From positions 23,340,366 through 23,404,365 of the forward strand of contig NC_088644.1 in the NCBI RefSeq assembly GCF_964019385.1: a stretch of DNA of 64,000 nt. Direction: 5' to 3'. A model generated the notes under the pieces. That model ran no database searches and had not been told where the DNA came from. It worked only from the letters and a program-made list of their open reading frames with translations. The stretch's first letter is position 1. Every line of letters begins with the position of its first letter. Positions 21,209-46,608 of this stretch are shown one piece after another. Source of the DNA: Sycon ciliatum. Its lineage: Eukaryota; Porifera; Calcarea; Leucosolenida; Sycettidae. Position numbers and translations under genes: made by a program.

Positions 21209-21219
21209 CTAAAAAACCG

Positions 21220-21292
21220 CCAGACCCACCAGGACTCGAACCTGGGACCCTGCTTGTCATGAGCAATGCTCTAACCACTGTGCTATGGGACC
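21220..21292 (-). tRNA. tRNA-like unit (copy 2, in the duplicated segment)
   Basis: Exact partner of the unit at 19408, offset by 1,812 bp. It shares the GCACAG D-arm variant. Confidence 0.5.
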
Positions 21293-21525
21293 AGGCTGAA
21301 CCTAGAAGGCGCTGACAAGTTTTTCACTCCAAAGGCAGCTCACAACACGTGCCACACATACTGATGGCACTTGGGTCTTTTTCCCTCCCCCAGGGGACCA
21401 ACCACGGTCAGTTTCTGGAAACTACCAGAGGTGAAAGAAAGTGATTAAATTTGGAAAGGATTGGGAGAACTTCATATTCAAAGGATCAGTCGGGGAAGTG
21501 AACTGCCTGAAAAGAGAAAAAAACG

Positions 21526-21598
21526 CCAGACCCACCAGGACTCGAACCTGGGACCCTGCTTGTCATGAGCAATGCTCTAACCACTGAGCTATGGGACC
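21526..21598 (-). tRNA. tRNA-like unit (copy 3)
   Basis: Folds as a class I tRNA: 7-bp acceptor with one T-T mismatch, GCTC/GAGC D stem, TTGCT/AGCAG anticodon stem, CCAGG/CCTGG T stem. The A box (TAGCTCAGTGG) and B box (GGTTCGAGTCC) match consensus. The 7-nt anticodon loop is CATGACA, so position 33 is A rather than the near-universal T and the anticodon would read TGA. That makes a functional tRNA doubtful. Confidence 0.55.
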
Positions 21599-21832
21599 AG
21601 GCTGAACCTAGAAGGCGCTGACAAGTTTTTCACTCCAAAGGCAGCTCACAACACGTGCCACACATACTGATGGCACTTGGGTCTTTTTCCCTCCCCCAGG
21701 GGACCAACCACGGTCAGTTTCTGGAAACTACCAGAGGTGAAAGAAAGTGATTAAATTTGGAAAGGATTGGGAGAACTTCATATTCAAAGGATCAGTCGGG
21801 GAAGTGAACTGCCTGAAAAGAGAAAAAAAACG

Positions 21833-21905
21833 CCAGACCCACCAAGACTCGAACCTGGGACCCTGCTTGTCATGAGCAATGCTCTAACCACTGAGCTATG
21901 GGACC
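21833..21905 (-). tRNA. tRNA-like unit (copy 4)
   Basis: As copy 3, with one change (CCACCAAG for CCACCAGG) that alters the T stem. T-run terminator present. Confidence 0.5.
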
Positions 21906-22139
21906 AGGCTGAACCTAGAAGGCGCTGACAAGTTTTTCACTCCAAAGGCAGCTCACAACACGTGCCACACATACTGATGGCACTTGGGTCTTTTTCCCTC
22001 CCCCAGGGGACCAACCACGGTCAGTTTCTGGAAACTACCAGAGGTGAAAGAAAGTGATTAAATTTGGAAAGGATTGGGAGAACTTCATATTCAAAGGATC
22101 AGTCGGGGAAGTGAACTGCCTGAAAAGAGAAAAAAAACG

Positions 22140-22212
22140 CCAGACCCACCAAGACTCGAACCTGGGACCCTGCTTGTCATGAGCAATGCTCTAACCACTG
22201 AGCTATGGGACC
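22140..22212 (-). tRNA. tRNA-like unit (copy 5)
   Basis: As copy 4, with the same CCACCAAG change. Confidence 0.5.
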
Positions 22213-22445
22213 AGGCTGAACCTAGAAGACGCTGACAAGTTTTTCACTCCAAAGGCAGCTCACAACACGTGCCACACATACTGATGGCACTTGGGTCTTT
22301 TTCCCTCCCCCAGGGGACCAACCACGGTCAGTTTCTGGAAACTACCAGAGGTGAAAGAAAGTGATTAAATTTGGAAAGGATTGGGAGAACTTCATATTCA
22401 AAGGATCAGTCGGGGAAGTGAACTGCCTGAAAAGAGAAAAAAACG

Positions 22446-22518
22446 CCAGACCCACCAGGACTCGAACCTGGGACCCTGCTTGTCATGAGCAATGCTCTAA
22501 CCACTGAGCTATGGGACC
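22446..22518 (-). tRNA. tRNA-like unit (copy 6)
   Basis: Identical to copy 3. It faces the inverted copy 7 across the hairpin at 22519-22578. Confidence 0.55.
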
Positions 22519-22578
22519 AGGCTGAACCTAGAAGGCGCTGACAGTGAAAAACTTGTCAGCGCCTTCTAGGTTCAGCCT
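22519..22578. repeat. Hairpin joining the two array orientations
   Basis: AGGCTGAACCTAGAAGGCGC and its inverse flank a short GACAGTGAAAAACTTGTC centre. This is the point where the tRNA-like array flips strand. Confidence 0.9.
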
Positions 22579-22651
22579 GGTCCCATAGCTCAGTGGTTAG
22601 AGCATTGCTCATGACAAGCAGGGTCCCAGGTTCGAGTCCTGGTGGGTCTGG
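22579..22651 (+). tRNA. tRNA-like unit (copy 7, inverted)
   Basis: Same sequence as copy 3 on the plus strand, followed by GCGTTTTTTTCTC. Confidence 0.55.
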
Positions 22652-26290: not shown

Positions 26291-26379
26291 TGCAGCTGTC
26301 AGTGTTGCTCGCGGTCTGCCACTGGCAAGCTCCACCGCCGCAAGAACCGATGGCGGAGGATCAGGAGGAGGCAGTGGGA
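26291..26379 (-). pseudogene. PLE-2 coding sliver between two insertions
   Basis: Eighty-nine bp matching PLE-3 46801-46890 (Pro-rich PPDPPPSVLAAVELASG region on the minus strand). It shows that the transposon and the palindromic element landed about 90 bp apart in the same PLE. Confidence 0.85.
26374..26379. repeat. Left 6-bp target site duplication GTGGGA
   Basis: Same hexamer at 41293-41298. The uninterrupted PLE-3 site reads GGTCCCACTGCC, with a single copy on the opposite strand. Confidence 0.93.
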
Positions 26380-26414
26380 AGTAGTAAGTGCGGGGCGGGT
26401 TCTGGCCCACTTTT

Positions 26415-26427
26415 TGACCTTTGACCT
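26415..26427. promoter_or_regulatory. DR1 nuclear-receptor-type site
   Basis: TGACCTTTGACCT, whose inverse AGGTCAAAGGTCA is the perfect DR1 consensus bound by RXR/HNF4/COUP-type receptors. A second site (TGACCTTTGACCC) lies at 26492-26504. Both repeat in the right arm at 41245-41257 and 41168-41180. Function is inferred from the motif only. Confidence 0.5.
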
Positions 26428-26732
26428 TTGGGCCAAATAAGGCACACTGTGTCGGTCGTGCTTGGTCTGGCCCGCGGGACCCCCCAGAGTTTGACCTTTG
26501 ACCCCTGGCATGCCATAAATGTGCCATAAAGGTTCTTTTCCGTGGCGAACGTGCACTTGTGTACGTTCGGTGCATTCGCACCGGGGAGTAGTAAAATACG
26601 TACTATTCCCTGATTTGCACATCGTAGATGCAGTGACATGATACAGTACAGTTTCTTTGGTAATGGTGTTTCATTTACTTTTGTATTTTCAGTTCGTTTT
26701 CTTTGTATTTAACTCCTCATTGTTTTTTTACC

Positions 26733-27070
26733 AGGCGTGGGCCATCCCCTGACTTCATAGGTGCCAAACATTTTACGTTTTTCATTTCTATTTTTTGTAC
26801 TACAGTATACATGGGTCCTTGCTGCTGCAGAGTGCTTTCGGTAACTATCCGTGGTGTGTTTGGCTACTGTTCTGCTTCAGTACCCCCCCCCCCACTTTTT
26901 CATGATTTTGAATGTTATCGTTTTCTCGGATTCCGGTTTTCCACTCTGTTATGTTCGAATCCATAGTCTGTTTAGTCTGTACACGATTTGTGCGGAACTT
27001 CTCATTGTTTTTTTTTGTTTTTGTTTTTTTTTTACCAGGCGTGGGCCATCCCCTGATCATAGGTGCCAAA
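26733..27070. repeat. Direct repeat ACCAGGCGTGGGCCATCCCC
   Basis: Two copies (about 26733 and 27037), each after a TCATTG-plus-poly-T run and followed by TGA..CATAGGTGCCAAA. Mirrored in the right arm. Confidence 0.85.
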
Positions 27071-27181
27071 GACTATGCTTCTCTTGCTGTCTGATCACAT
27101 GCGACGTCATCATTATGTGATTTGTTTTCAATCCTCCGCCATGGCAAATTGTGTTTTGTTCGCCCGTAAAAGAGGCTTTTA

Positions 27182-27187
27182 CAGACT

Positions 27188-27222
<35 letters not shown>

Positions 27223-27271
27223 AGTACTACAGTATACATGTAGTATCAAGAGTAAAAAAAAAAAAAAAAAA
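27182..27271. repeat. Two poly-A tracts
   Basis: Long A runs (about 27187-27220 and 27254-27271) separated by ACTAGTACTACAGTATACATG. Mirrored as T runs at about 40399-40486, with slightly different lengths. Confidence 0.9.
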
Positions 27272-27390
27272 GACATATTGCGCATGCGTGCATACGCACG
27301 CGGAGCGTATGACCTTCAGAGACCCTGCTTGCGGGAAAGACGCAGTGCAACACAAGGTGTACTAGTACACGTGTCATTATACTACTCCCT

Positions 27391-27797
27391 GATTCGCACT
27401 TCGTAGATGTGCAGCAAACAAGTTACAGTCCATTCATCGGAAACTGGCCCGCTGGCTTTTGAAAGTCGGATTTGGGCCAAATTGAGGATCAAAAACCCAC
27501 TTTAAATCTCAAAATTCTGGGTTTTGGATCTGCTTCTCCATACATTTTGCCATGGCATACCTGTCCTAATTGTGTAAAACCTGGCTGAATTTCTATTTCC
27601 CTGTTCTTGGACTTTTCTGGCCTCAAATGTGGCAAGGAGTAATCGCACGAGTCACACGATGCAGGATGTACTGTTGTTTTCACGATATCTACAACTATGT
27701 GAGAGAGACACCAAAAAGTTAGGGTGCCAGTTTCCAATGAATGGACTGTAGTTCACGTGCCATGCACTCGTTTTATTCGCACATCGTAGATGTGCAC
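27391..27797. repeat. Iteron-like hairpin motifs and inverted pair
   Basis: ATTCGCACWTCGTAGATGTGC occurs at 27391 and 27775, with a related shorter copy (ATTTGCACATCGTAGATGC) at 26613. GCACATC-GTA-GATGTGC is itself a hairpin. Between them ACAGTCCATTCATCGGAAAC (27427) and its inverse (about 27727) form a second inverted pair. Mirrored in the right arm. Confidence 0.7.
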
Positions 27798-27814
27798 TGA
27801 CAAGTTGCCCATAC

Positions 27815-28100
27815 AGAGCATGCCTAATCGGCTTTTCGATCGGTTAAGAGAATGTTCAAATTCGGCCATATTATGAGCTCCAAGATCAGAATTCGGCTCA
27901 ACATAGTACTTGAAGTCACCGTTCCCATTACGTCATGTACATTTACCGGTACATACACCCTGTTGAAGCACTGAAGCATCGGTTTTCGGCGAATTCAACA
28001 TGCAAATTTTTGAAAATTCGGCGAAAAGATGGGTAATTTCTTCAAAACCACTGTTTTCGGCGAATTTTTCGCCCGGCCGATTAGGGAAATGCCTACTGTC
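27815..28100. repeat. TTCGGCGAA-rich MITE-like repeat within the arm
   Basis: Begins near GCCTAATCGGCTTTTCGATC and ends GCCGATTAGGGAAATGCC, with several CGGCGAA/TTCGCCG motifs inside. Relatives lie outside the element at 51786-52510. The frame 28029-28418 that starts inside it is probably not a gene. Confidence 0.65.
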
Positions 28101-28455
28101 CATGCAGGTCCATTAGATGCAAATTTCTATTTTGATCAGGATACAGTTAGAATCAACCGGCTCCGCCCGCAGTATCATGCATCAAAACAATTATTGAAGG
28201 GGTGTCACAGTGAAGCAGTGTTGCTACGCACCGCAAATCCCCTCTGCACTGCACCGAATCTATACTGGAGAATGCAGAGTGACCAGCAAAGAGTCACAAC
28301 CCGCAGGTATCCAGTCACACTAAGGCAAATCCACCATTCCCCACATATTCACTGTAACAAACACAATACTGTTTACTATAATGCACTTTTATTTAAATGG
28401 ACTTGGATGAGTCTGTAGAAGAGAACACAATGCACGCACACGCACGCATGCGCGG

Positions 28456-28459
<4 letters not shown>

Positions 28460-28502
<43 letters not shown>
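28460..28502. repeat. (CA)n microsatellite
   Basis: About 40 bp of CA, mirrored as (TG)n at about 39170-39213. Confidence 0.95.
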
Positions 28503-28503
<1 letters not shown>

Positions 28504-28942
28504 CTAGGTTATAGTGTTATACACATATCTAGGGTTTAGGAAGCACGAGAATGTGTCGAAGCACCCACACATACCCCTTCATGCAGTGTACTTCAGTTGC
28601 CCAACACATTACGACTGCACAGGACCATCACAAAACACATTACGACTGCTATAGCACAGGACCATCACAAAACACTACACACTGTTACTACACTACACAC
28701 ACAGTTACTACACTACGCCTGTTACAAGTACTTACAAATAATTTTGAAACAAATGGCACACCCCGAAGACGGCAGCTCCAGACCTTCATACATCATCATC
28801 TGTAAAACAAAACATGAGCGCACACAAACACTATTAGTGTCACGAATACGAAAGCAGGGTAAGACAAGAGGATACGAAACAAGTAAGTATCGCTATAACG
28901 AGGGGGGGGGGTAAGTATACATGTAGACAGAGCAGTGCTTAC

Positions 28943-29372
28943 TTACAGGGTCCTAATACGCTCCACGGCATCCCGGTAGTCGGACTGCAACAGCAGCCCG
29001 ACCTGGCGACCCTCCCAGTAACGGGTTAGATGGGCCGCACCCGCCAGGTGGGCGACCACGGCTGGGCTTCCCACCAGCCTTTCTCCACTGTAAAAACGAA
29101 AGAAACCGCAGAAAGCACAGTGTCATAGAGCTCTTTTGTTGGGGGAGAGAGCTAGGAGCACTGCACACTTACCATTTGTCACAATATATGATGAGAAAGA
29201 GGCGGCGCTTGACGCACCGCCTCAGGTGCTGAAACAGGGTTATTACCCCTGACATTCGAACGCTACAGTGACAAGTGAAAGCCATTTGGACTGTAATGAT
29301 ACTGAAGTGAAGGTGTGAACCGCAAAGCAAGGACTTTACCTTCTTCCTGTCGAATTCGCTTCCCAGCTGCAT
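28943..29372 (-). CDS. Spliced small zinc-binding protein, left arm copy
   Basis: Two exons, 29173-29372 and 28943-29087, joined by GT..AG (donor GTAAGTGTG, acceptor TTTTTACAG), give 114 residues. An upstream Met at 29372 is used here; a second Met lies at residue 30. Visible motifs: FTCHCSVRM, then HLRRC, then across the splice junction YCDKCGERL. These Cys/His pairs suggest a zinc-binding fold. The second half is helical and basic-acidic (YWEGRQ, LLLQSDYRDAVERI). The stop lies in the next donor-like GTAAGT, so splicing or retention there gives the same end. The gene is divergent from the RING gene, about 175 bp apart. Family unknown. The open frame across a spliced junction and an identical second copy support it as real. 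Confidence 0.6.
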
Positions 29373-29547
29373 ACCGACATCATCCGCTAAAACCCAATCA
29401 TACCAAGTAACGCAAAGGTCATCAGTTGACCTTTTTGACTTTTCAACTCTTATCCAAAACCACCAAGAGGAAAAAACCAGGATGAAGAAGACGTCAGTTG
29501 TAGAAGCGTTTGTGGAGGAGTTGTTACATTATTCTCAGTAAATAGAT
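29373..29547. promoter_or_regulatory. Shared intergenic region of divergent arm genes
   Basis: The 175 bp between the starts of the zinc gene (minus) and the RING gene (plus) must hold both promoters. It contains AAAGGTCATCAGTTGACCTTT, an everted/inverted pair of AGGTCA half-sites, echoing the DR1 sites near the element ends. No TATA box seen. Confidence 0.4.
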
Positions 29548-30336
29548 ATGGCTGATACATTCGGTGTAGACGTGGACGACCGGTCGTGGTCTCTCACCAC
29601 GGGTCCTTTACTAATAGAAAGGCGGACGCCAATAAGAACTGTTGTGGAGGTGGCAGATCAAAACGCGCAGCAAGAAATTTGGCACGTCGATGGTAGACTC
29701 CATCAGGAGGACGGACCAGCTCTTGTTGATAGTAGGGGAGTGTCCGCCTGGTGCTATGAAGGTCGCCTTCATCGCGTTAATGAACGGGCTTGGATAGGAC
29801 GGGGTAGCATCGAGTACTACCTCAACGGTGTCCGTCATAGAGCCGGCGGTCCTGCAGTCAGTTATTGTGACGCCACATGCTGTATTCTACGGTGGTATCA
29901 CCAAGGAAGGCTCCACAGGGAGAATGCGCCAGCGGTTATACACAGGGAAGGTAACAATCGTGGACGGGAGTGGTACCGATACAACCTTTGGCATAAGGAA
30001 GATGGACCTGCTTTCATCTCTCAGGAGGAGGAGGGTGTCTATCAGTGGTACCTCAACGGGGTGTATTACGGTGACCACCATCAAGACCAGGCAATACACC
30101 CCATGGAGCTGCAGTTTATTGATGTAGTGCCTACTAAGGTAGACTCGTCAGCAATAAGTCATGAGTCCAGTTGTGTGATTTGTCAGGATGCCCTGGATCG
30201 TCCTCTATCCAAGTTGGAGTGTGGTCATGAATTTCACTTCCACTGTATCAAGTAGTGGATCAGTTCTGCCCCCAGCCCAACTTGCCCAACCTGCCGCTAC
30301 TCCATGACTGCCGAGGACTTGGTTGAGTTCTTGTAG
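29548..30336 (+). CDS. RING-finger protein with LHR..GPA repeats, internal TAG (left copy)
   Basis: Starts at ATG 29548. Residues about 45-190 are tandem repeats of the form (D/E)GRLH(R/Q)E(D/N)xPA..., e.g. GRLHQEDGPAL, GVRHRAGGPAV, GRLHRENAPAV, LWHKEDGPAF. Such repeats are known from large DNA viruses and some MORN-like proteins. The C terminus starts a RING finger (CVICQDALDRP, LECGHEFHFHC). A TAG at 30253-30255 falls inside the RING. The same frame then supplies the last Cys pair (CPTC) and ends at 30334-30336. RING proteins are usually ubiquitin ligases. Either the RING is truncated or TAG is read through; the sequence cannot tell. The right-arm copy has the same TAG plus another stop. 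Confidence 0.7.
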
Positions 30337-30422
30337 TAATACATGACACAGCTGCATGTAGGCGACTACGAATGACCAGTCATGTGCTACAGACGGACAC
30401 GGACACGCCACCCTAAGTAGCC

Positions 30423-30647
30423 ATGAGCGGCTCTTTGGACAAGGGCAACAAAGCACCCCGTGGGCGGCCAAGGTTGACACTAGCCACAAGTCTGCTCGCT
30501 CAGTTGAATAAGCTGGGTGTGCCCATGAAGACCATGGAAGACCTTTCCAGGTGCCGGCAACAAGCAGAGGATAAGACAGACTGGAAGAAACTGTGCAGCT
30601 CGACACTCGAGGACAAATCAGTATCAGCAGCTACTACACGTTGCTGA
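30423..30647 (+). CDS. Hypothetical 74-aa protein (left copy)
   Basis: Frame with RGRPRLTLATSLLAQLN and a charged Cys-containing tail (DWKKLC). It follows the RING gene and precedes an AT-rich end. The GRPRLT...W pattern recalls LINE C-terminal tails but is too short to assign. Identical copy at 37024-37248 minus. It could be a chance frame. Confidence 0.3.
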   Translation: MSGSLDKGNKAPRGRPRLTLATSLLAQLNKLGVPMKTMEDLSRCRQQAEDKTDWKKLCSSTLEDKSVSAATTRC

Positions 30648-30789
30648 TGATGCTCACAAGACAGAAGTGGGAAAAACACTGAATTTCTTTATTTAGTGCT
30701 CAACTACGCGAAATGTGTTATTATTATTATACATGTTCAACTGTACTCAGTCTGGCTGACTGCCATTCTCTACCACACATTACCGGACA

Positions 30790-31925
30790 CTGTTGTGGTT
30801 GTCGTCGTTATCGTCGTCGTCATTGTTGATGTTGTTGTCGGTTGTTGTCGTCGTTATCGTCGTCGTTGTTGATTTTGTTGGTGGCTGTTGCTGTCGGTTG
30901 TTGTCGGTTGTTGTCGTTTGCTGTTGGTTGTTGTTGGTTGTTGTTGATGTTGTTGTCGGTTGTTGTCGTCGTTATCGTCGTCGTTGTTGATGTTGTTATT
31001 AGTTGTTGCTGTCGGTTGTTGGTTGTTATTGGTTGTTCCTGTCGGTTGTTGGTTGTTATTGTTGATTGTTGTCGGTTGTTGTTGGCTGTTGGATGTTGTT
31101 ATTAGTTGTTGCTGTCGGTTGTTGGTTGTTATTGGTTGTTGCTGTCGGTTGTTGGTTGTTATTGTTGATTGTTGTCGGTTGTTGTTGGCTGTTGGATGTT
31201 GTTGCCGGTTGTTGTCGGTTGTTGTTGGTTATTGTTCGTTGTTGTTGGTTGTTGTTGGGCGTTGTTGGTTGTTGTCGGTTGTTGTCAGGTGTTGGTGGTT
31301 GTTGTTGGTTGTTGTTGTCGGTTGTTGTCGGTTGTTGGATGTTGTTGTCGGTTGTTGGGTGTTGTTGTCGGTTGTTGGGTGTTGTTGTCGGTTGTTGGGT
31401 GTTGTTGTCGGTTGTTGGGTGTTGTTGTTGGTTGGTGTTGGTTGGTGTTGGTTGTTGTTGGTTGTTGTCGGTTGTTGTCCGTTGTTGTTGGTTGTTGTTG
31501 GTTGTTGTTGGCTGTTGTTGGTTGTTGTTGTTTGTTGTTGTCGGTTGTTGGTTGTTGTTGTGTGTTGTTGTTGGTTGTAGTTGGTTGTTGTCAGTTGTTG
31601 TTGGTTGTTGGATGTTGTTGTCGGTTGTTGTCGGTTGTTGTCGGTTGTTGTTGGTTGTTGTTGGTTGTTGTTGGCTGTTGTTGGTTGTTGTTGGTTGTTG
31701 TTGGTTGTTGTTGTTTGTTGTTGTCGGTTGTTGGTTGTTGTTGTTGTTTGTTGTTGTTGTTGGTTGTAGTTGGTTGTTGTCAGTTGTTGTTGGTTGTTGT
31801 ATGTTGTTGTCGGTTGTTGTCGGTTGCTGTCGGTTGTTGTCGGTTGTTGTTGGCTGTTGTTGGCTGTTGTTGGCTGTTTTTGGTTGTTGTTGGTTGTTGT
31901 CGGTTGTTTTTGGTTGTTGTGGTTT
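30790..31925. repeat. TTG/TCG-rich satellite, left arm
   Basis: About 1.1 kb of GGTTGTTGTTGGTTGTTGTC-type units. Being stop-poor, all frames are open: the minus strand gives an Asn/Gln/Thr-rich 295-residue frame (31056-31943) and the plus strand gives Val/Cys/Leu-rich frames. These are treated as repeat artefacts, although a QN-rich product cannot be excluded. Confidence 0.93.
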
Positions 31926-32350
31926 AATCGTTATTTTGTTCATTATCCAGGAGGATGTTGCTATGATCTAGTACCATTTTTTCACATATATGAGACAAGT
32001 TTGTGTAACGTTAGTGTGACGTGGGGTATGCTGATTGGATGTGAGGTGGTGAGAGTATGCTGATTGGCGATAACAATTAGTGGAAGGGATAAAGTAATGC
32101 GCTGCTTGTGCAGCGTAGCCAAACACATGGTCAGTGGGAAACACCCTAGTACAATAAATAAAATAATAATAACATGAATTGCCACCGGCACTTGAGAGAC
32201 TCGAGCCCCGCCACCTTGTTCAAATCGGACTTGGTAGCTTCATACTGGAACTTAATCTTCTTCTTTTTGAGGTATGACCGTACAAAACGTGCTTGGAATT
32301 TTTCATTTTATTTTATTTTTTATTTGTTTTATTTTTTCATTGCAACTTTT

Positions 32351-32710
32351 TTAGCAGATATCAACTTTTTTAGCAGACTCGTGAAACAACGGTGAATCTG
32401 GAACGCATAAATGGTCCATGTCAAAGGCATGACGAGTCTCGAAGTCTTCACATTCATGATGGAACCTTGTCATGATTGACGCATTCCTTGATGGTGCGCA
32501 CATGAAATCACCCTGGCTCATCTTTTCCAACTCCATTCTTTTCACATCCTGCAACCCATACCCTACTAGTATCAGTGGGGATGCTAGAATCAGAAGAGGC
32601 AAGGCAGCACTCTTCCGTGGATGTATTACTTGACACAACACCACCCATACTTGTTTTCTAGAAGTTTTGACTATAATGATATATTGCAGCAGGAAGTAGT
32701 ATACAGTCAA
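32351..32710 (-). CDS. Small membrane protein (left copy)
   Basis: A 119-residue frame. The N terminus is hydrophobic (YYFLLQYIIIV), then a basic loop, then a membrane segment (ALPLLILASPLILVGYGL) and an acidic C-terminal tail with Cys and His. The start lies only about 50 bp inside the arm, so the two copies have different upstream sequence: this one is driven from the left edge of the core. The right copy (34961-35320) is open too, with only two residue changes. Open frames in both suggest a real product, but no family is recognised. Confidence 0.5.
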   Translation of the reverse strand: MTVYYFLLQYIIIVKTSRKQVWVVLCQVIHPRKSAALPLLILASPLILVGYGLQDVKRMELEKMSQGDFMCAPSRNASIMTRFHHECEDFETRHAFDMDHLCVPDSPLFHESAKKVDIC

Positions 32711-32861
32711 ATAGGATAGGATAAGAATGAATGATCAACTGTCTGATAAAGAATGCAGTTCAGGGTTTAGAAATATGCACAAGGCATAGTCGCAGTAGGG
32801 CAGCATGGCGATTTGTTTGTCGAACTATTAGAATGCGTAGAGTGAATAGAGTGAAGTCCAT

Positions 32862-32900
32862 ATCCCGACCGGTTTCGCTGTCTGTAGCTCATCAGGGGAT
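32862..32900 (-). ncRNA. Hammerhead ribozyme in the element core
   Basis: On the minus strand: ATCCC, core CTGATGA (32895-32889), helix II GCT..AGC with a 6-nt loop, GAA, ACCGGT, C, GGGAT. Helix I pairs ATCCC with GGGAT. ACCGGT (32868-32873) is a perfect palindrome, so helix III would form between two RNA copies. All catalytic-core bases are present. Its sequence differs from the PLE hammerheads in the window, so it was not copied from those. Confidence 0.75.
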
Positions 32901-33002
32901 GCTTTAAAGAAAAGCCGTGGACTAAAAATTAATAAAATGTGAGTAGGGATATATAGTGGGTTTTTCCAGGGCAATTATCAGGTACAACCATTGGGGTAGA
33001 GG

Positions 33003-33043
33003 ACCTCATATCCTCTCCGACGTGTTGGAGAGGGTATGAGGAT
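33003..33043. repeat. Stem-loop upstream of the zinc-ribbon gene
   Basis: CCTCATATCCTCTCC pairs with GGAGAGGGTATGAGG (one mismatch-type pair) around a GACGTGTT loop. It lies just before the TATA box. Confidence 0.8.
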
Positions 33044-33054
33044 AGGATTGGTTA

Positions 33055-33060
33055 TATAAA
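33055..33060 (+). promoter_or_regulatory. TATA box of the zinc-ribbon gene
   Basis: TATAAA in the context GGTTATATAAAG, 50 bp before the ATG at 33110. Confidence 0.55.
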
Positions 33061-33109
33061 GTAGATATCATGCTGGATATAGTGTCATAATGAGGATGTT
33101 GGTGTGAAG

Positions 33110-33547
33110 ATGAATTCTGAATTTAAGATCTTACCTGCTTATGTACGTGAAAGGAGACTTCATGAGAAGGATGAAGAAGAAGAAGAAAAAGAGCAATACG
33201 GGGAGGAAAAACAGTGTCAACATCTTGATCATGTTTTACATGAAGGAAGATACGTGTGTTCTTCGTGTGGACTTGTCATGGCGGTGATTTACTTCCCTGA
33301 AGATGATGTGCATAGGAGATGTAGTTTGATGAAGAAGCCTTACGCGGTACATGAGCGGTTAAGCGGTGTGCATCGTCATCTTTTGCATTTTCTTTCGAAA
33401 ACTGAACTCTTATCCGATCAGCTTTGCGTACACACTCTTCGGGAGCAGATACTTGCGATGAAAAAAATCCTGTTTGTACAAGAGTATAAACTATGCTATA
33501 GCATTATCCTGCATAGTATACGATACGAATGTGGATGTACTACGTAA
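33110..33547 (+). CDS. TFIIB-like zinc-ribbon protein (N-terminal frame)
   Basis: Start chosen at ATG 33110 after a TATA box. After an acidic stretch (EEEEEKEQ) comes a zinc ribbon: CQH, 12 residues, then the knuckle CSSCGLVM. The order C-x-H ... G-x-x-x-C-x-x-C-G-L-V is that of TFIIB-type ribbons, with the CxH variant seen in large DNA virus factors. TFIIB proteins recruit RNA polymerase to promoters, so a transcription role for the element's own genes is likely but inferred. The frame ends at 33547, but a better-looking continuation lies in the +1 frame from 33462 to 33884, meeting at a run of seven A (33461-33467). The gene may be frameshifted or use slippage. Confidence 0.6.
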   Translation: MNSEFKILPAYVRERRLHEKDEEEEEKEQYGEEKQCQHLDHVLHEGRYVCSSCGLVMAVIYFPEDDVHRRCSLMKKPYAVHERLSGVHRHLLHFLSKTELLSDQLCVHTLREQILAMKKILFVQEYKLCYSIILHSIRYECGCTT

Positions 33548-33884
33548 ACTGCGTTCCTACTTACCTCGTAGCAATGTATCATGGTTGAGGTTCAGTCGAA
33601 TCATGAAACCTCTTCCTCAGCATTTTCCACTCCTATATGTACTGCATCTCATGGAGTCGACCAGGATGGTGTCTTCTTCTCAACTGTCCACGTTGCGTAC
33701 GAATTTGCTGATTTTATCTCCATCTGATACATCTCTTATGGCATCATTGATTGATGCCTATTGTTGGGAAACCTATTCACTTGATCACGTGATTCAGAAC
33801 TTGCACACGTTTGACTCTGATCTTATTTCCATACTGTATCAGTTCACTAAAGTGGCGGTATCATGTAAGGAATCTTTAAGATGA
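33462..33884 (+). CDS. Continuation frame of the zinc-ribbon gene
   Basis: Open in the +1 frame from the A7 run to a TGA at 33882-33884. No good ATG begins it. It is leucine- and helix-rich (AIALSCIVYD, RSYLPRS, SLIDAYCWE), which would suit the helical cyclin-like part expected after a TFIIB ribbon; that match is by character only. Best read as the rest of the preceding gene rather than a separate one. Confidence 0.45.
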   Translation, partial: KKSCLYKSINYAIALSCIVYDTNVDVLRKLRSYLPRSNVSWLRFSRIMKPLPQHFPLLYVLHLMESTRMVSSSQLSTLRTNLLILSPSDTSLMASLIDAYCWETYSLDHVIQNLHTFDSDLISILYQFTKVAVSCKESLR

Positions 33885-33891
33885 GATATGA

Positions 33892-34024
33892 TTTTGGTGG
33901 GCATGCCGCTGATTGGACAAAATGCTTTTGGCGGGTTTGATGCTGGGTGGTCAAATGTTTTTGGTGGGCTCAATGCTGAGTGGTCAAATGTTTTTGGCGG
34001 GCTTGATGGTGATTGGTTGACCTA
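33892..34024 (+). promoter_or_regulatory. Four 33-bp promoter repeats
   Basis: Units start at 33892, 33926, 33959 and 33992, each TTTTGG(T/C)GGG ... TG(A/G)(T/G)TGG(T/A). TTTTGGCGGG resembles an E2F site, and GATTGG in the first and last units is an inverted CCAAT box. They stand about 40 bp before a TATA box, so they look like an upstream activating array for the gene at 34128. Confidence 0.65.
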
Positions 34025-34062
34025 GCTGACACATATTTTATCACTTCAACCCGCCTCCGTCT

Positions 34063-34070
34063 CTGCCTTG
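34063..34070 (+). promoter_or_regulatory. TATA box of the second core gene
   Basis: TATAAATA in CTTGTATAAATACGGG, 58-65 bp before ATG 34128. Confidence 0.6.
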
Positions 34071-34127
34071 TATAAATACGGGTGGTTGTCCTGTAGTCGA
34101 GTCATTCGTTCATCGAATACAGTGCTG

Positions 34128-34466
34128 ATGAGTTGTTCTCCCTTCGCTTCCTGGAAGATGGATAACCTATACGAGCGGCGGGTGAGGAAGAATTCCGCTC
34201 TTCCTGCTGACCCTCCTCAAGTTGTGCTCTCTTCGAAGGCAGTACCGGCTAAGCGTCTCTATGTGTCACCTGCTCCTACCAAGCTCCACAAAGAGATTGT
34301 GGTAGATGGGTTTCAGGAGGACATGCAACTGTCCTACAAGTCATCAGGTAGATCCTTCTACAAGCCTGGTTATAAGATGTACTTCCCTTCAGGAGCTCTA
34401 CCAGCCTGTGGTAGTACGGCAACAGCTCGCAAAAAGATGCTCAAGGACAGGTTTACATCGAACTGA
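34128..34466 (+). CDS. Unknown core protein, N-terminal frame
   Basis: Start chosen at ATG 34128 downstream of the TATA box; an earlier in-frame codon at 34068 would overlap the TATA box. About 112 residues, basic and Pro/Ser-rich (YERRVRKNSALPADPP, KRLYVSPAPTKLH), then Tyr/Gly-rich (SGRSFYKPGYKMYFPSG). It ends at 34464-34466. A second frame overlapping its last bases carries on to 34900 in natural-looking protein sequence, so the gene is probably one ORF broken by an indel near 34450. No family recognised. Confidence 0.5.
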   Translation: MSCSPFASWKMDNLYERRVRKNSALPADPPQVVLSSKAVPAKRLYVSPAPTKLHKEIVVDGFQEDMQLSYKSSGRSFYKPGYKMYFPSGALPACGSTATARKKMLKDRFTSN

Positions 34467-34900
34467 ATGAGTCCACTGAGTTCATCATTACGAACTTGAT
34501 CAAGACTTGTCCATCGCTCCGTGACACTCTCCGAAGAGGACGTGTGGAGAAGATCAAGACCAACTTCTACCCATCACGTTCGTCCTACGGTCAATGTCGG
34601 GTGTACATCAACGGTGAAAGCAAGCTAGTCCCGACCAGCGGGTTCGAACTGGATGTGGAACAAGATGTTTTCATCTACCCCGGGGCAGTCTCCCTCGACA
34701 TTGACGAGCAAGCGTTGAAGGTACGTCTTGCTGTTGCTCCAATCGTCTGCATCAACGTGGACCCCAGATGTTTTCATCGTTCTCTGGACGCACACATGAC
34801 ACTTTCTACCACGGAACTGAAACAGCTAACTGAGAGCTTCATATCATTATGCAGTGTCGCCGTCCAACATGACGATCAGCTGGTAGAGACCTTCCAATAA
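34439..34900 (+). CDS. Unknown core protein, C-terminal frame
   Basis: Open frame from about 34439 to the TAA at 34898-34900, without a convincing ATG. It contains TEFIITNLIKTCPSL, YPSRSSYGQCRVYING, and a beta-rich stretch with repeated valines (DVFIYPGAVSLDID, RLAVAPIVCIN). It overlaps the previous frame by about 28 bp. The stop lies 8 bp before the right arm. The function is unknown; nothing identifies it as a capsid or polymerase part. Confidence 0.5.
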   Translation, partial: AQGQVYIELNESTEFIITNLIKTCPSLRDTLRRGRVEKIKTNFYPSRSSYGQCRVYINGESKLVPTSGFELDVEQDVFIYPGAVSLDIDEQALKVRLAVAPIVCINVDPRCFHRSLDAHMTLSTTELKQLTESFISLCSVAVQHDDQLVETFQ

Positions 34901-34960
34901 GTCTTTAATGAACTGCATTCTTTATCAGACAGTTGATCATTCATTCTTATCCTATCCTAT

Positions 34961-35320
34961 TTGACTGTATACTACTTCCTGCTGCAATATATCATTATAG
35001 TCAAAACTTCTAGAAAACAAGTATGGGTGGTGTTGTGTCGAGTAATACATCCACGGAAGAGTGCTGCCTTGCCTCTTCTGATTCTAGCATCCCCACTGAT
35101 ACTAGTAGGGTATGGGTTGCAGGATGTGAAAAGAATGGAGTTGGAAAAGATGAGCCAGGGTGATTTCATGTGCGCACCATTAAGGAATGCGTCAATCATG
35201 ACAAGGTTCCATCATGAATGTGAAGACTTCGAGACTCGTCATGCCTTTGACATGGACCATTTATGCGTTCCAGATTCACCGTTGTTTCACGAGTCTGCTA
35301 AAAAAGTTGATATCTGCTAA
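34961..35320 (+). CDS. Small membrane protein (right copy)
   Basis: Same 119 residues as the left copy except Arg for Gln near residue 33 and Leu for Ser near residue 82. It starts 60 bp after the stop of the preceding core gene, so it could share that transcript, whereas the left copy must have its own upstream sequence. Confidence 0.5.
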   Translation: MTVYYFLLQYIIIVKTSRKQVWVVLCRVIHPRKSAALPLLILASPLILVGYGLQDVKRMELEKMSQGDFMCAPLRNASIMTRFHHECEDFETRHAFDMDHLCVPDSPLFHESAKKVDIC

Positions 35321-35746
35321 AAAAGTTGCAATGAAAAAATAAAATAAATAAAAAATAAAATAAAATGAAAAATTCCAAGCGCGTTTTGTACGGTCATACC
35401 TCAAAAAGAAGAAGATTAAGTTCCAGTATGAAGCTACCAAGTCCGATTTGAACAAGGTGGCGGGGCTCGAGTCTTTCAAGTGCCGGTGGCAATTCATGTT
35501 ATTATTATTTTATTTATTGTACTAGGGTGTTTCCCACTGACCATGTGTTTGGCTACGCTGCACAAGCAGCGCATTACTTTATCCCTTCCACTAATTGTTA
35601 TCGCCAATCAGCATACTCTCACCACCTCACATCCAATCAGCATACCCCACGTCACACTAACGTTACACAAACTTGTCTCATATATGTGAAAAAATGGTAC
35701 TAGATCATAGCAACATCCTCCTGGATAATGAACAAAATAACGATTA

Positions 35747-36880
35747 AAACACAACAACCAAAAACAACCGACAACAACCAACAACAACCAAAAACAGCCA
35801 ACAACAGCCAACAACAGCCAACAACAACCGACAACAACCGACAGCAACCGACAACAACCGACAACAACATACAACAACCAACAACAACTGACAACAACCA
35901 ACTACAACCAACAACAACAACAAACAACAACAACAACCAACAACCGACAACAACAAACAACAACAACCAACAACAACCAACAACAACCAACAACAGCCAA
36001 CAACAACCAACAACAACCAACAACAACCGACAACAACCGACAACAACCGACAACAACATCCAACAACCAACAACAACTGACAACAATCAACTACAACCAA
36101 CAACAACACACAACAACAACCAACAACCGACAACAACAAACAACAACAACCAACAACAGCCAACAACAACCAACAACAACCAACAACAACGGACAACAAC
36201 CGACAACAACCAACAACAACCAACACCAACCAACACCAACCAACAACAACACCCAACAACCGACAACAACACCCAACAACCGACAACAACACCCAACAAC
36301 CGACAACAACACCCAACAACCGACAACAACATCCAACAACCGACAACAACCGACAACAACAACCAACAACAACCACCAACACCTGACAACAACCGACAAC
36401 AACCAACAACGCCCAACAACAACCAACAACAACGAACAATAACCAACAACAACCGACAACAACCGACAACAACATCCAACAGCCAACAACAACCGACAAC
36501 AATCAACAATAACAACCAACAACCGACAGCAACAACCAATAACAACCAACAACCGACAGCAACAACTAATAACAACATCCAACAGCCAACAACAACCGAC
36601 AACAATCAACAATAACAACCAACAACCGACAGGAACAACCAATAACAACCAACAACCGACAGCAACAACTAATAACAACATCAACAACGACGACGATAAC
36701 GACGACAACAACCGACAACAACATCAACAACAACCAACAACAACCAACAGCAAACGACAACAACCGACAACAACCGACAGCAACAGCCACCAACAAAATC
36801 AACAACGACGACGATAACGACGACAACAACCGACAACAACATCAACAATGACGACGACGATAACGACGACAACCACAACA
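35747..36880. repeat. AAC/CAA-rich satellite, right arm
   Basis: Mirror of 30790-31925. The plus-strand Asn/Gln/Thr-rich frame 35728-36615 and reverse-strand Val/Leu/Cys frames are repeat artefacts. Confidence 0.93.
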
Positions 36881-37023
36881 GTGTCCGGTAATGTGTGGTA
36901 GAGAATGGCAGTCAGCCAGACTGAGTACAGTTGAACATGTATAATAATAATAACACATTTCGCGTAGTTGAGCACTAAATAAAGAAATTCAGTGTTTTTC
37001 CCACTTCTGTCTTGTGAGCATCA

Positions 37024-37248
37024 TCAGCAACGTGTAGTAGCTGCTGATACTGATTTGTCCTCGAGTGTCGAGCTGCACAGTTTCTTCCAGTCTGTCTTAT
37101 CCTCTGCTTGTTGCCGGCACCTGGAAAGGTCTTCCATGGTCTTCATGGGCACACCCAGCTTATTCAACTGAGCGAGCAGACTTGTGGCTAGTGTCAACCT
37201 TGGCCGCCCACGGGGTGCTTTGTTGCCCTTGTCCAAAGAGCCGCTCAT
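37024..37248 (-). CDS. Hypothetical 74-aa protein (right copy)
   Basis: Identical in sequence to 30423-30647. See that entry. Confidence 0.3.
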   Translation of the reverse strand: MSGSLDKGNKAPRGRPRLTLATSLLAQLNKLGVPMKTMEDLSRCRQQAEDKTDWKKLCSSTLEDKSVSAATTRC

Positions 37249-37334
37249 GGCTACTTAGGGTGGCGTGTCCGTGTCCGTCTGTAGCACATGACTGGTCATT
37301 CGTAGTCGCCTACATGCAGCTGTGTCATGTATTA

Positions 37335-38123
37335 CTACAAGAACTCAACCAAGTCCTCAGCAGTCATGGAGTAGCGGCAGGTTGGGCAAGTTGGGCTGGG
37401 GGCAGAACTGATCCACTACTTGATACAGTGGAAGTGAAATTCATGACCACACTCCAACTTGGATAGAGGACGATCCAGGGCATCCTGACAAATCACACAA
37501 CTGGACTCATGACTTATTGCTGACGAGTCTACCTTAGTAGGCACTACATCAATATACTGCAGCTCCATGGGGTGTATTGCCTGGTCTTGATGGTGGTCAC
37601 CGTAATACACCCCGTTGAGGTACCACTGATAGACACCCTCCTCCTCCTGAGAGATGAAAGCAGGTCCATCTTCCTTATGCCAAAGGTTGTATCGGTACCA
37701 CTCCCGTCCACGATTGTTACCTTCCCTGTGTATAACCGCTGGCGCATTCTCCCTGTGGAGCCTTCCTTGGTGATACCACCGTAGAATACAGCATGTGGCG
37801 TCACAATAACTGACTGCAGGACCGCCGGCTCTATGACGGACACCGTTGAGGTAGTACTCGATGCTACCCCGTCCTATCCAAGCCCGTTCATTAACGCGAT
37901 GAAGGCGACCTTCCTAGCACCAGGCGGACACTCCCCTACTATCAACAAGAGCTGGTCCGTCCTCCTGATGGAGTCTACCATCGACGTGCCAAATTTCTTG
38001 CTGCGCGTTTTGATCTGCCACCTCCACAACAGTTCTTATTGGCGTCCGCCTTTCTATTAGTAAAGGACCCGTGGTGAGAGACCACGACCGGTCGTCCACG
38101 TCTACACCGAATGTATCAGCCAT
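37335..38123 (-). pseudogene. RING/LHR-GPA repeat gene, right copy with extra stop
   Basis: Same gene as 29548-30336. It carries the shared TAG inside the RING and an additional TAG at 37914-37916 (TAT in the left copy), which ends the frame after 69 residues. A Phe-to-Tyr change occurs near 37554. One arm copy is therefore broken while the other stays open to the RING. Confidence 0.75.
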
Positions 38124-38298
38124 ATCTATTTACTGAGAATAATGTAACAACTCCTCCACAAACGCTTCTACAACTGACGTCTTCTTCATCCTGGTTTTTT
38201 CCTCTTGGTGGTTTTGGATAAGAGTTGAAAAGTCAAAAAGGTCAACTGATGACCTTTGCGTTACTTGGTATGATTGGGTTTTAGCGGATGATGTCGGT

Positions 38299-38728
38299 AT
38301 GCAGCTGGGAAGCGAATTCGACAGGAAGAAGGTAAAGTCCTTGCTTTGCGGTTCACACCTTCACTTCAGTATCATTACAGTCCAAATGGCTTTCACTTGT
38401 CACTGTAGCGTTCGAATGTCAGGGGTAATAACCCTGTTTCAGCACCTGAGGCGGTGCGTCAAGCGCCGCCTCTTTCTCATCATATATTGTGACAAATGGT
38501 AAGTGTGCAGTGCTCCTAGCTCTCTCCCCCAACAAAAGAGCTCTATGACACTGTGCTTTCTGCGGTTTCTTTCGTTTTTACAGTGGAGAAAGGCTGGTGG
38601 GAAGCCCAGCCGTGGTCGCCCACCTGGCGGGTGCGGCCCATCTAACCCGTTACTGGGAGGGTCGCCAGGTCGGGCTGCTGTTGCAGTCCGACTACCGGGA
38701 TGCCGTGGAGCGTATTAGGACCCTGTAA
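38299..38728 (+). CDS. Spliced small zinc-binding protein, right arm copy
   Basis: Exons 38299-38498 and 38584-38728, mirror of the left copy with the same splice sites and no difference seen in the coding parts. Further donor/acceptor-like sites (acceptors ending at about 38870 and 39260) and AATAAA near 39280 suggest the transcript continues through 3' UTR exons. Confidence 0.6.
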
Positions 38729-39167
38729 GTAAGCACTGCTCTGTCTACATGTATACTTACCCCCCCCCCTCGTTATAGCGATACTTACTTGTTTCGTATC
38801 CTCTTGTCTTACCCTGCTTTCGTATTCGTGACACTAATAGTGTTTGTGTGCGCTCATGTTTTGTTTTACAGATGATGATGTATGAAGGTCTGGAGCTGCC
38901 GTCTTCGGGGTGTGCCATTTGTTTCAAAATTATTTGTAAGTACTTGTAACAGGCGTAGTGTAGTAACTGTGTGTGTAGTGTAGTAACAGTGTGTAGTGTT
39001 TTGTGATGGTCCTGTGCTATAGCAGTCGTAATGTGTTTTGTGATGGTCCTGTGCAGTCGTAATGTGTTGGGCAACTGAAGTACACTGCATGAAGGGGTAT
39101 GTGTGGGTGCTTCGACACATTCTCGTGCTTCCTAAACCCTAGATATGTGTATAACACTATAACCTAG

Positions 39168-39169
<2 letters not shown>

Positions 39170-39213
<44 letters not shown>
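39170..39213. repeat. (TG)n microsatellite
   Basis: Mirror of the (CA)n at 28460-28502. Confidence 0.95.
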
Positions 39214-39217
<4 letters not shown>

Positions 39218-39571
39218 CCGCGCATGCGTGCGTGTGCGTGCATTGTGTTCTCTTCTACAGACTCATCCAAGTCCATTTAAATAAAAGTGCATTATAGTAA
39301 ACAGTATTGTGTTTGTTACAGTGAATATGTGGGGAATGGTGGATTTGCCTTAGTGTGACTGGATACCTGCGGGTTGTGACTCTTTGCTGGTCACTCTGCA
39401 TTCTCCAGTATAGATTCGGTGCAGTGCAGAGGGGATTTGCGGTGCGTAGCAACACTGCTTCACTGTGACACCCCTTCAATAATTGTTTTGATGCATGATA
39501 CTGCGGGCGGAGCCGGTTGATTCTAACTGTATCCTGATCAAAATAGAAATTTGCATCTAATGGACCTGCAT

Positions 39572-39857
39572 GGACAGTAGGCATTTCCCTAATCGGCCGG
39601 GCGAAAAATTCGCCGAAAACAGTGGTTTTGAAGAAATTACCCATCTTTTCGCCGAATTTTCAAAAATTTGCATGTTGAATTCGCCGAAAACCGATGCTTC
39701 AGTGCTTCAACAGGGTGTATGTACCGGTAAATGTACATGACGTAATGGGAACGGTGACTTCAAGTACTATGTTGAGCCGAATTCTGATCTTGGAGCTCAT
39801 AATATGGCCGAATTTGAACATTCTCTTAACCGATCGAAAAGCCGATTAGGCATGCTC
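39572..39857. repeat. TTCGGCGAA-rich MITE-like repeat, right arm
   Basis: Mirror of 27815-28100. Confidence 0.65.
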
Positions 39858-40450
39858 TGTATGGGCAACTTGTCAGTGCACATCTACGATGTGCGAATAA
39901 AACGAGTGCATGGCACGTGAACTACAGTCCATTCATTGGAAACTGGCACCCTAACTTTTTGGTGTCTCTCTCACATAGTTGTAGATATCGTGAAAACAAC
40001 AGTACATCCTGCATCGTGTGACTCGTGCGATTACTCCTTGCCACATTTGAGGCCAGAAAAGTCCAAGAACAGGGAAATAGAAATTCAGCCAGGTTTTACA
40101 CAATTAGGACAGGTATGCCATGGCAAAATGTATCGAGAAGCAGATCCAAAACCCAGAATTTTGAGATTTAAAGTGGGTTTTTGATCCTCAATTTGGCCCA
40201 AATCCGACTTTCAAAAGCCAGCGGGCCAGTTTCCGATGAATGGACTGTAACTTGTTTGCTGCACATCTACGAAGTGCGAATCAGGGAGTAGTATAATGAC
40301 ACGTGTACTAGTACACCTTGTGTTGCACTGCGTCTTTCCCGCAAGCAGGGTCTCTGAAGGTCATACGCTCCGCGTGCGTATGCACGCATGCGCAATATGT
40401 CTTTTTTTTTTTTTTTTTTACTCTTGATACTACATGTATACTGTAGTACT

Positions 40451-40484
<34 letters not shown>

Positions 40485-41244
40485 AGTCTGTAAAAGCCTC
40501 TTTTACGGGCGAACAAAACACAATTTGCCATGGCGGAGGATTGAAAACAAATCACATAATGATGACGTCGCATGTGATCAGACAGCAAGAGAAGCATAGT
40601 CTTTGGCACCTATGATCAGGGGATGGCCCACGCCTGGTAAAAAAAAAACAAAAACAAAAAAAAACAATGAGAAGTTCCGCACAAATCGTGTACAGACTAA
40701 ACAGACTATGGATTCGAACATAACAGAGTGGAAAACCGGAATCCGAGAAAACGATAACATTCAAAATCATGAAAAAGTGGGGGGGGGGGTACTGAAGCAG
40801 AACAGTAGCCAAACACACCACGGATAGTTACCGAAAGCACTCTGCAGCAGCAAGGACCCATGTATACTGTAGTACAAAAAATAGAAATGAAAAACGTAAA
40901 ATGTTTGGCACCTATGAAGTCAGGGGATGGCCCACGCCTGGTAAAAAAACAATGAGGAGTTAAATACAAAGAAAACGAACTGAAAATACAAAAGTAAATG
41001 AAACACCATTACCAAAGAAACTGTACTGTATCATGTCACTGCATCTACGATGTGCAAATCAGGGAATAGTACGTATTTTACTACTCCCCGGTGCGAATGC
41101 ACCGAACGTACACAAGTGCACGTTCGCCACGGAAAAGAACCTTTATGGCACATTTATGGCATGCCAGGGGTCAAAGGTCAAACTCTGGGGGGTCCCGCGG
41201 GCCAGACCAAGCACGACCGACACAGTGTGCCTTATTTGGCCCAA

Positions 41245-41257
41245 AGGTCAAAGGTCA
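41245..41257. promoter_or_regulatory. DR1 nuclear-receptor-type site, right arm
   Basis: AGGTCAAAGGTCA, mirror of 26415-26427. Partner site GGGTCAAAGGTCA lies at 41168-41180. Confidence 0.5.
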
Positions 41258-41292
41258 AAAAGTGGGCCAGAACCCGCCCCGCACTTACTACT

Positions 41293-41298
41293 GTGGGA
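41293..41298. repeat. Right 6-bp target site duplication GTGGGA
   Basis: Matches 26374-26379. The PLE-2 sequence resumes directly (CCGGGACCGCAAGCGG). Confidence 0.93.
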
Positions 41299-42953
41299 CC
41301 GGGACCGCAAGCGGCACCGCCTCAGCCAAAGCCGCCGGGGGCACTGACGAGGGAACCACCGACGGCCGGAGCAAAGGCGGCGACACAAGCCGACCCGATG
41401 AGCCACCACGCCCATTCTCCTCCACCACTGCCACCAACGACGGCGGAGCAAGCACAGTCTGAGAGCCAGGATCCGCGGGTTGTGTAGGCAACGGCTGTGT
41501 GGTTAATGGTTGTTTTCTAGGTCGCCCTCGCTTCGGTCTTTGTTGTTGTGCGCAAGGTGGAAGTATGTGACGTGGTGTGTGTTGTTTGATGCGTGCGTTC
41601 AGGTGCTGAACAGTCCTACCAACATACCGACTAGCGCATTGTCGGCATTCAAAGTTGTAAATAAGATGACTAAGGTGAAGGGCTGGTAGGACATCCTTCC
41701 GCACCGTAAACGCACGCATCGTCGTAAAAACTGGCACAAAGTGTACTGCATAGTATGTTCGACGAACAACGGACTTGACTGCACTACAAACTTTAGTCGA
41801 CTCCTGTCCTTTCCAAGGCAAACATAAATAGACGGGACAACGAGCAGGACCAAACAAAGGAGCCTAAGTAGTTTGTTCGACTTTCAACAACTTCTGCAAC
41901 AAAAACTCAGGGTACCCGTTCTTAACGAAAACTGACCGGAGAAAGTCAAGCTCTTCCTGCAGCTTACAGGACGAACAAATACGCTTCGCACGGTCTACAA
42001 GGTTACGCACTAAGTTTACTTTATATTGAGACGAACAATAAGAGTCATATACAATGTACTGACCAGTATACGTCGGCTTACGATAAACGGTTGTCAGAAC
42101 GTCACTACTCGTTTTTTCCACCAGCACATCCAGAAATGACAACTTGTTGGACTGTTCATGCTCACATGTGAAACGAAGGGCAGGGTGAATACCATTTAAC
42201 ACGTCCAGAAACTCGTTACTACGCTCCTCATTATTAAAATATGTGAATGAGTCGTCCACGAAACGTACATAAAGGTCAGGCCACAATGAATCATCAATCT
42301 TCGACTCACAGTAACCGACAAACACGTTTGCCAATACTGGACCAAGGGGCGAACCCATCGCGACACCATCGACTTGTTTGTACATGACATTGTTGAACGA
42401 AAACTCAACTCCAGTTGTGACCAGCAGCAACAACCGTCTAAACGCACTTTCAGATATCCAAGGAGTGTCAATGTCATCATTACGGTACAAAACATCCATG
42501 CAGATGTCAACAGTTTCTTCAATCGGCACATTAGTAAAACTGACGACGTCAAACGAACACATGTGTGCGTTGGGTGGTACAGGCTTGTTGCGGAGCTTTT
42601 CGACGAAATCAAAACTGTCTTTTACAGTGCGCTTGCAATAGTGGTCCTGCACTGGTTGTAAGTAAATACACAGCCACTTGGAAATAGAATACTGAGGCGA
42701 GGCCGTCATAGAAAGGATGGGACGTACTGGACATGTGGGCTTGTGTATTTTTGGTAAGCCATATAGCCTAGGCCGGAGCGTGCCTGTCGGTTTTATGCGA
42801 TCGAAATCATTGGAGAATATTTCTCCGTCGGCTTTCAGTTTCTTTAGGTAAGCTACTAGTTCTTTTTCTACTTTCTCTGTTCGATCAAAACTTTCAACCG
42901 GGCCGATGGTCTGGAACTTTGATGTGTCATTTAGGATGACAGACATCTTGTCT
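41299..42953 (-). pseudogene. PLE-2 RT and GIY-YIG segment, one in-frame TAG
   Basis: From the right: MSVILNDTSKF, LPKIHK, RPILSMTASPQ, motif B VAMGSPLGPVLANVFVGY, motif C YVRFVDDSF with two Asp, then a TAG at 41864-41866. The same frame continues with the linker (LCLPWKGQES) and GIY-YIG domain (HLIYNFECRQCASRYVGRT, RIKQH), then the Pro-rich tail as far as the palindromic element. The frame is otherwise intact over about 550 residues. RT primes on nicked target DNA; GIY-YIG makes the nick. The N-terminal part is separated by the 2.56-kb insertion to the right. Confidence 0.87.
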
Positions 42954-46505: not shown

Positions 46506-46608
46506 ACGCATCAATTAACACACACCACGTCACATACTTCCACCTTGCGCACAACAACAAAGACCGAAGCGAGGGCGACCTAGAAAACAACCATTAACCA
46601 CACAGCCG

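Follow-up and report, generated by a model that had tools for sequence, protein, structure and literature searches.

A palindromic, probably non-autonomous family of Maverick-type elements in the sponge Sycon ciliatum

The window analysed here, a 64,000-nucleotide stretch of the genome of the calcareous sponge Sycon ciliatum (contig NC_088644.1, positions 23,340,366 to 23,404,365), contains a 14.9-kb element at positions 26380-41292 that belongs to a multi-copy, mobile family of elements, mostly about 15 kb long. The complete form of the family is a giant palindrome, in which mirror-oriented units of about 7-7.7 kb, each with a RING gene, a minisatellite and two core genes, surround a short centre. 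The family is Maverick-like by its ends and target site duplication and is not Maverick by gene content or arm length; it is a palindromic, probably non-autonomous family of Maverick type. Whole 15-kb palindromes are expected to be unstable in genomes, and this family has moved and persists in an animal despite that expectation. The explanation we favour, with a probability of about 0.5, is that its members are Maverick-like satellites that use enzymes supplied in trans and replicate via a giant self-annealing hairpin.

A preliminary description of the window, made from its letters alone, had claimed a 6-bp duplication, AG..CT ends and two inverted arms of about 6.38 kb. All three are found exactly where it placed them, and that observation is both real and understated. 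The boundaries and arms are as follows.

26374-26379: left target site duplication GTGGGA, perfect over 6 bp
26380-32762, plus strand: left arm, 6,383 bp, starting AGTAGTAAGTGC
34909-41292, minus strand: right arm, 6,384 bp, terminating in GCACTTACTACT
41293-41298: right target site duplication GTGGGA, perfect over 6 bp

The ends of the element read AGTAGT...ACTACT. The arms differ from one another by 12 substitutions and by 3 gap positions in two indels, and enclose a core of 2,146 bp. The window holds 15 AGTAGT and 19 ACTACT sites, and among their pairings at distances of 200 bp to 40 kb this element is the sole pair with equal 6-bp flanks. An empty site lies in the same window: the joined flanks, minus one GTGGGA, match positions 46894-46505 over 390 uninterrupted bp with 3 mismatches (99.2%), to which the left flank contributes 93 bp, with no match farther out. 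The insertion target is a Penelope-like sequence.

41288-42955, minus strand: Penelope-like frames, with reverse transcriptase and GIY-YIG domains, at the insertion site
46505-46894, minus strand: empty-site paralogue of the insertion site, inside Penelope-like sequence

The assembly (538,412,230 bases in 313 contigs) was searched with the terminal 221 bp of the element. This gave 451 candidate end places, of which 40 were scored, all 40 matching at 95-100%. Judged by where they lie and how they are oriented, 30 of the 40 make up 15 inverted pairs, the window pair included, and the other 10 stand singly. The preliminary description had staked its claim on there being a second copy with the same ends; the sequences of 14 additional pairs were inspected as halves (C12, C8a, C14, C7, C9, C8b, C10c, C13, C10a, C8d, C8e, C3, C10d and C6), and 13 of them, like the window copy, are flanked by perfect 6-bp duplications (10/10 in the first set examined and 3/4 in the second). 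The motif 5'-(AGT)2//(ACT)2-3' is present in the window copy and in 12 of the 14 others, the C7 and C10a junctions lying outside this count. A separate search with the terminal 16-mer gave two loci, which were taken as chance; L001, the one inspected, bore no sign of a terminus.

Nine of the other 14 are near-complete palindromes, with core sequence on each arm. In seven of these (C12, C8a, C14, C7, C9, C8b and C10c) no more than about 230 bp separates the arms from the cut that divides the halves, and both halves hold the core of the window copy, in C9 from core position 460 only. Arms measure about 7.0-7.7 kb in 7/10 copies of the first set. C8e and C3 also carry the core twice, with one-sided insertions of about 4.5 kb and 2.1 kb, respectively, and one arm of C12 differs in length by about 107 bp. 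The core of C13 is the lopsided 2,146-bp core of the window copy, letter for letter, at a different target site. The preliminary description had taken a unique 2.1-kb core for the plan of the element, and in this it was mistaken: the single-copy core distinguishes the window copy and its sister C13 and is no trait of the family as a whole. Within the one-sided insertion of C8e, on its right arm (L032:5884-8955, minus strand), lies a RAG1-like frame of 1,024 amino acids with Pfam matches to RAG1_imp_bd (4.2e-9) and DUF1280 (1.9e-15).

Five of the 10 single ends were examined over their first 9-10 kb each; frames of at least 220 amino acids were inspected by eye and three were scanned against Pfam. 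In three of the five stretches, oppositely oriented core sequences flank a single centre. The frames of another, L039, look Gypsy-like by eye, and in the fifth, L042 on contig C9, a weak hAT-like transposase frame (L042:2316-4322, plus strand; E 0.0015) adjoins a Maverick-type end of the family.

The centre of the palindrome was compared between copies by scoring stems with up to 2 mismatches. The C7 stem ends in a loop of 8 nt, GACGTGTT, and the spacers of the other copies measure 14 nt (C10c), 18 nt (C9), 49 nt (C12), 53 nt (C14) and 83 nt (C8a), with none in C8b. Two stretches at the left of the window core bear on the origin of its lopsided form.

32763-32964: filler of about 200 bp from the left arm to the old centre, core positions 1-202
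33004-33041: remnant of the family's palindrome centre, a 15-nt stem with one mismatch and the 8-nt loop GACGTGTT, its sequence read by eye

The filler is matched in C13 only among the 14 other copies. This, together with the remnant of a C7-type loop, suggests a complete palindrome as the ancestor of the window copy, which is best read as a palindrome minus the core genes of one arm, plus about 200 bp of filler. The centre of C9 falls within the TFIIB-like gene described below, at a 5-bp ATCTT/AAGAT microhomology. We considered this as proof of fold-back synthesis and dropped it, since a microhomology deletion across an existing centre yields the same product. The filler also contains a hammerhead-ribozyme core motif, CTGATGAG...GAAAC (32872-32895, minus strand; one match, 0.05 expected); Rfam gave no hammerhead match in the window, and the folded stretch is no stabler than its shuffles (z 0.97).

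The two arms of a copy are, on average, more alike than arms of different copies. In a tree of the region around the arm-borne RING gene, built from 28 arms of 14 copies (the window copy included, C6 left out), the two arms of the same copy group together in 14/14 cases: seven pairings have support of at least 95/80, four consist of rows identical over the kept columns and three have lower support. Arms in this region differ by a mean of 0.11% within copies (maximum 0.55%) and by a mean of 3.69% between copies (minimum 0.06%, C10c vs C10d). Whole-arm comparisons of C12 with C14 gave 20 between-copy differences present on both arms, 9 private differences and no shared asymmetries, and those of C7 with C10c gave 17, 6 and none, respectively.

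The genes and repeats of the window copy are listed below.

29542-30336, plus strand: arm gene, left copy, with YwqK/MORN-like repeats and a RING finger
30798-31924, plus strand: left-arm minisatellite with a 10-bp period, which has its mirror image in the right arm
33083-33884, plus strand: core gene 1, weakly TFIIB-like, a broken frame (33083-33547 and 33462-33884)
33886-34017, plus strand: four direct repeats of 32 nt, preceding core gene 2
34026-34900, plus strand: core gene 2, without known domain, a broken frame (34026-34466 and 34415-34900)
37335-38129, minus strand: arm gene, right copy, with one extra stop at 37914

Neither core frame is intact in the window copy; other copies have unbroken ones, core gene 1 forming frames of 260 amino acids in C8e and C3. 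TATATAA at 33053 precedes core gene 1 and TATAAAT at 34071 goes with core gene 2. The TFIIB label of core gene 1 is a weak one, derived from a zinc-ribbon motif seen by eye and a zinc-ribbon Pfam match of 15 bits, where the cut-off is 29. Core gene 2 shows 97% identity with the EukProt entry P0001 (scpid42763/scgid21042); 'scpid' identifiers denote Sycon ciliatum proteins, according to PMC6526912. Its further relatives are P0002 (256 amino acids, 32 members; longer), P0003 (10 members) and P0007, a JGI metagenome protein of 277 amino acids with 50% identity on a 1,228-bp contig. Scans of IMG/VR viral contigs, P0007 among the queries, found no relative for three forms of core gene 2, the RING protein or the TFIIB-like protein. 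Intact relatives of the arm gene are P0014 (21 members) and P0015 (10 members).

In the window copy the RING frame has an in-frame stop in both arms, and the right arm alone has one more. Across the same 14 copies as in the tree, the frame is open on both arms in eight (C12, C14, C7, C10a, C9, C8b, C10c and C8d), stopped on both arms in four (window, C13, C8a and C3) and stopped on one arm in two (C8e and C10d). All four arms of the window copy and C13 are interrupted by one and the same RING stop. Since the broken core recurs identically in C13 at another target site, the breaks are hardly random sequencing errors; the same broken core and RING frame at two different sites show that this form was copied even though its own genes were not intact.

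No Maverick core gene was recognised, as the preliminary description had also reported. Of the 79 frames of at least 50 amino acids in one arm plus the core, 12 minisatellite frames were dropped and the remaining 67 were scanned against Pfam. There was no match to a protein-primed DNA polymerase B, nor to rve integrase, ATPase, protease or capsid genes, although remote relatives of any of these may escape such a scan. A further 12 selected frames from other copies and one-ended stretches likewise gave no Maverick polymerase, integrase, ATPase, protease or capsid by Pfam. Matches to KNOX1, YndJ and P19Arf_N (E 0.003-0.008 over 67 frames) were taken as chance, and PDB, PHROGs and NCBIfam gave weak or chance matches only. 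From its gene complement, the simplest reading of the window element would be that it is non-autonomous, as first proposed; C13 holds the same broken genes.

Vertebrate Mavericks carry the end motifs 5'-(AG)3//(CT)3-3' and 5'-(AGT)2//(ACT)2-3' with 6-bp duplications, and intact ones measure 12,723-24,620 bp with inverted repeats of 46-1,447 bp, according to PMC8097293. The family shares the second of these motifs and the 6-bp duplication, and the window element falls within that size range. In contrast, its arms are 6.4-7.7 kb long in the window copy, C13 and the seven fullest copies, and those of the window copy are 4.4 times the longest inverted repeat given there for intact vertebrate Mavericks. 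The family also differs from Mavericks in having, by Pfam, no recognisable gene for a polymerase, integrase, ATPase, protease or capsid. The hairpin genomes of parvoviruses would be similar, if the replication model given below holds, in that a single strand anneals to itself over much of its length; they differ in that Pfam recognises no Rep-like gene in the family, which is integrated with 6-bp duplications. Racquet or panhandle intermediates of invertron plasmids have been invoked for very long inverted repeats in PMC1864894. Plasmids of this type, such as the linear pAL2-1 of Podospora, resemble the family in their terminal inverted repeats and in the racquet/panhandle idea, but are described there as mitochondrial and as having their own polymerase, and the long repeats are flanking mitochondrial DNA rather than part of the element. 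For casposons, too, a proposal patterned on the Maverick model includes panhandles formed at the inverted repeats (PMC4046053). Among the titles and abstracts listed in searches on Mavericks/Polintons (also with sponges, TFIIB or non-autonomous forms), transposable elements of calcareous sponges, foldback palindromes, snap-back genomes, killer plasmids and panhandles, mostly outside subscription papers, none describes such an element.

On the favoured reading of these elements as Maverick-like satellites, a Maverick integrase acting in trans would join the AGTAGT ends to 6-bp staggered cuts, and a protein-primed polymerase, also supplied in trans, would copy the linear form from its repeated ends. 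The displaced single strand may then anneal to itself as a hairpin of about 7 kb, and repair or resynthesis on this hairpin would equalise the arms before reintegration. A helper Maverick would be expected to terminate in AGTAGTAAGTGCGG. If Maverick enzymes do mobilise the family, it would offer a natural test system for protein-primed replication, for the origin of snap-back genomes and for the way in which Maverick satellites manage with neither capsid nor polymerase genes. Differences between the arms would serve either as an internal clock dating each insertion or as a direct readout of conversion between arms. A bolder proposal, which we advance only tentatively and consider rather unlikely, is that these elements represent a new class of animal mobile element or virus satellite. 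Its replicating genome would be a self-complementary hairpin, each strand pairing with itself along some 7 kb and being restored to a complete palindrome during replication by the enzymes of a helper Maverick; intact copies would contribute transcription-factor-like and ubiquitin-ligase-like genes of their own for exploiting host or helper.

Several observations weigh against the favoured reading. The flanks of C6 lack matching duplications (one of the 14 pairs), and four pairs are incomplete or disrupted, namely the partial copies C10a and C8d, the coreless 8.3-kb form C10d and the disrupted copy C6. Structure predictions for both core proteins are poor (predicted local distance difference test scores of 34 and 40). 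The whole arms of the window copy and C13, compared with left and right swapped because C13 lies in the opposite orientation, show one both-arm difference, 8 private differences and 5 shared asymmetries, and the five asymmetries common to both copies imply at least one transposition without full rebuilding of the arms. Gene conversion after insertion could also produce the identity of arms copy by copy. The preliminary description had suggested that the long arms could allow hairpin replication; the arm identity lends that idea support, although gene conversion would give the same identity.

The main rival, a close one that we nevertheless regard as doubtful, is accordingly that the family is a Maverick-mobilised palindrome without special replication, its arms equalised by ordinary intrachromosomal gene conversion once inserted. 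The arms of Y-chromosome palindromes are kept alike by gene conversion, and the same process would account for the pairing of arms by copy and for both-arm substitutions without new replication; the asymmetries shared by the window copy and C13 would fit imperfect conversion. Yet the one-arm insertions in C3 and C8e and the 107-bp difference in C12 stand neither spread nor removed, although they may be young. Conversion would also be expected to proceed most easily near the short centre, yet the differences lean inward, a weak point: over 11 copies, 23 arm substitutions fall in the outer half and 52 in the inner half (p=0.001), with an inner excess in seven copies, an outer excess in two and ties in two. 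Much of this lean, which would also weigh against the favoured reading, comes from the window copy and C13, which are not independent; without C10a, the window copy and C13 it shrinks to 11 vs 23 (p=0.058). A strong inner-half bias in the window copy taken by itself (p=0.006, or 0.039 without the minisatellite) was set aside, as it weakens once non-independent copies are removed.

It is unlikely that the family is a foldback element of the Galileo kind or another long-armed DNA transposon, moved by some unrelated transposase whose insertions leave 6-bp duplications. Foldback elements such as Galileo do possess very long inverted arms containing tandem subrepeats, but they have other ends and another duplication length, whereas AGTAGT...ACTACT with a 6-bp duplication is the type reported for Mavericks, and the RAG1-like gene of C8e and the hAT-like gene of L042 lie outside the shared unit. 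An assembly fold-back artefact is very improbable indeed. Assemblers are known to produce perfect palindromes in error, but 14 loci, the window included, have distinct flanks with perfect duplications, an empty site lies inside the window and the contigs bearing the other copies are about 1 to 47 Mb long. The arms also have private differences, among them the stop confined to the right arm in the RING frame of the window copy and the one-arm insertions elsewhere; private arm mutations, differing outer flanks and separately duplicated copies together make a fold-back error unlikely.

Other features of the window lie outside the element. A Mutator-like transposase fragment (24801-25223, plus strand; Pfam PF20700, 1.4e-10) is located just to its left, and seven tRNA matches (six on the minus strand and one on the plus) at 19409-22650 probably represent a tRNA-like repeat. 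Coding pieces of ABC transporters, comprising ATP-binding and membrane parts, occur on opposite strands towards the two sides of the window, at 10083-11723 (minus) and 62428-63291 (plus).

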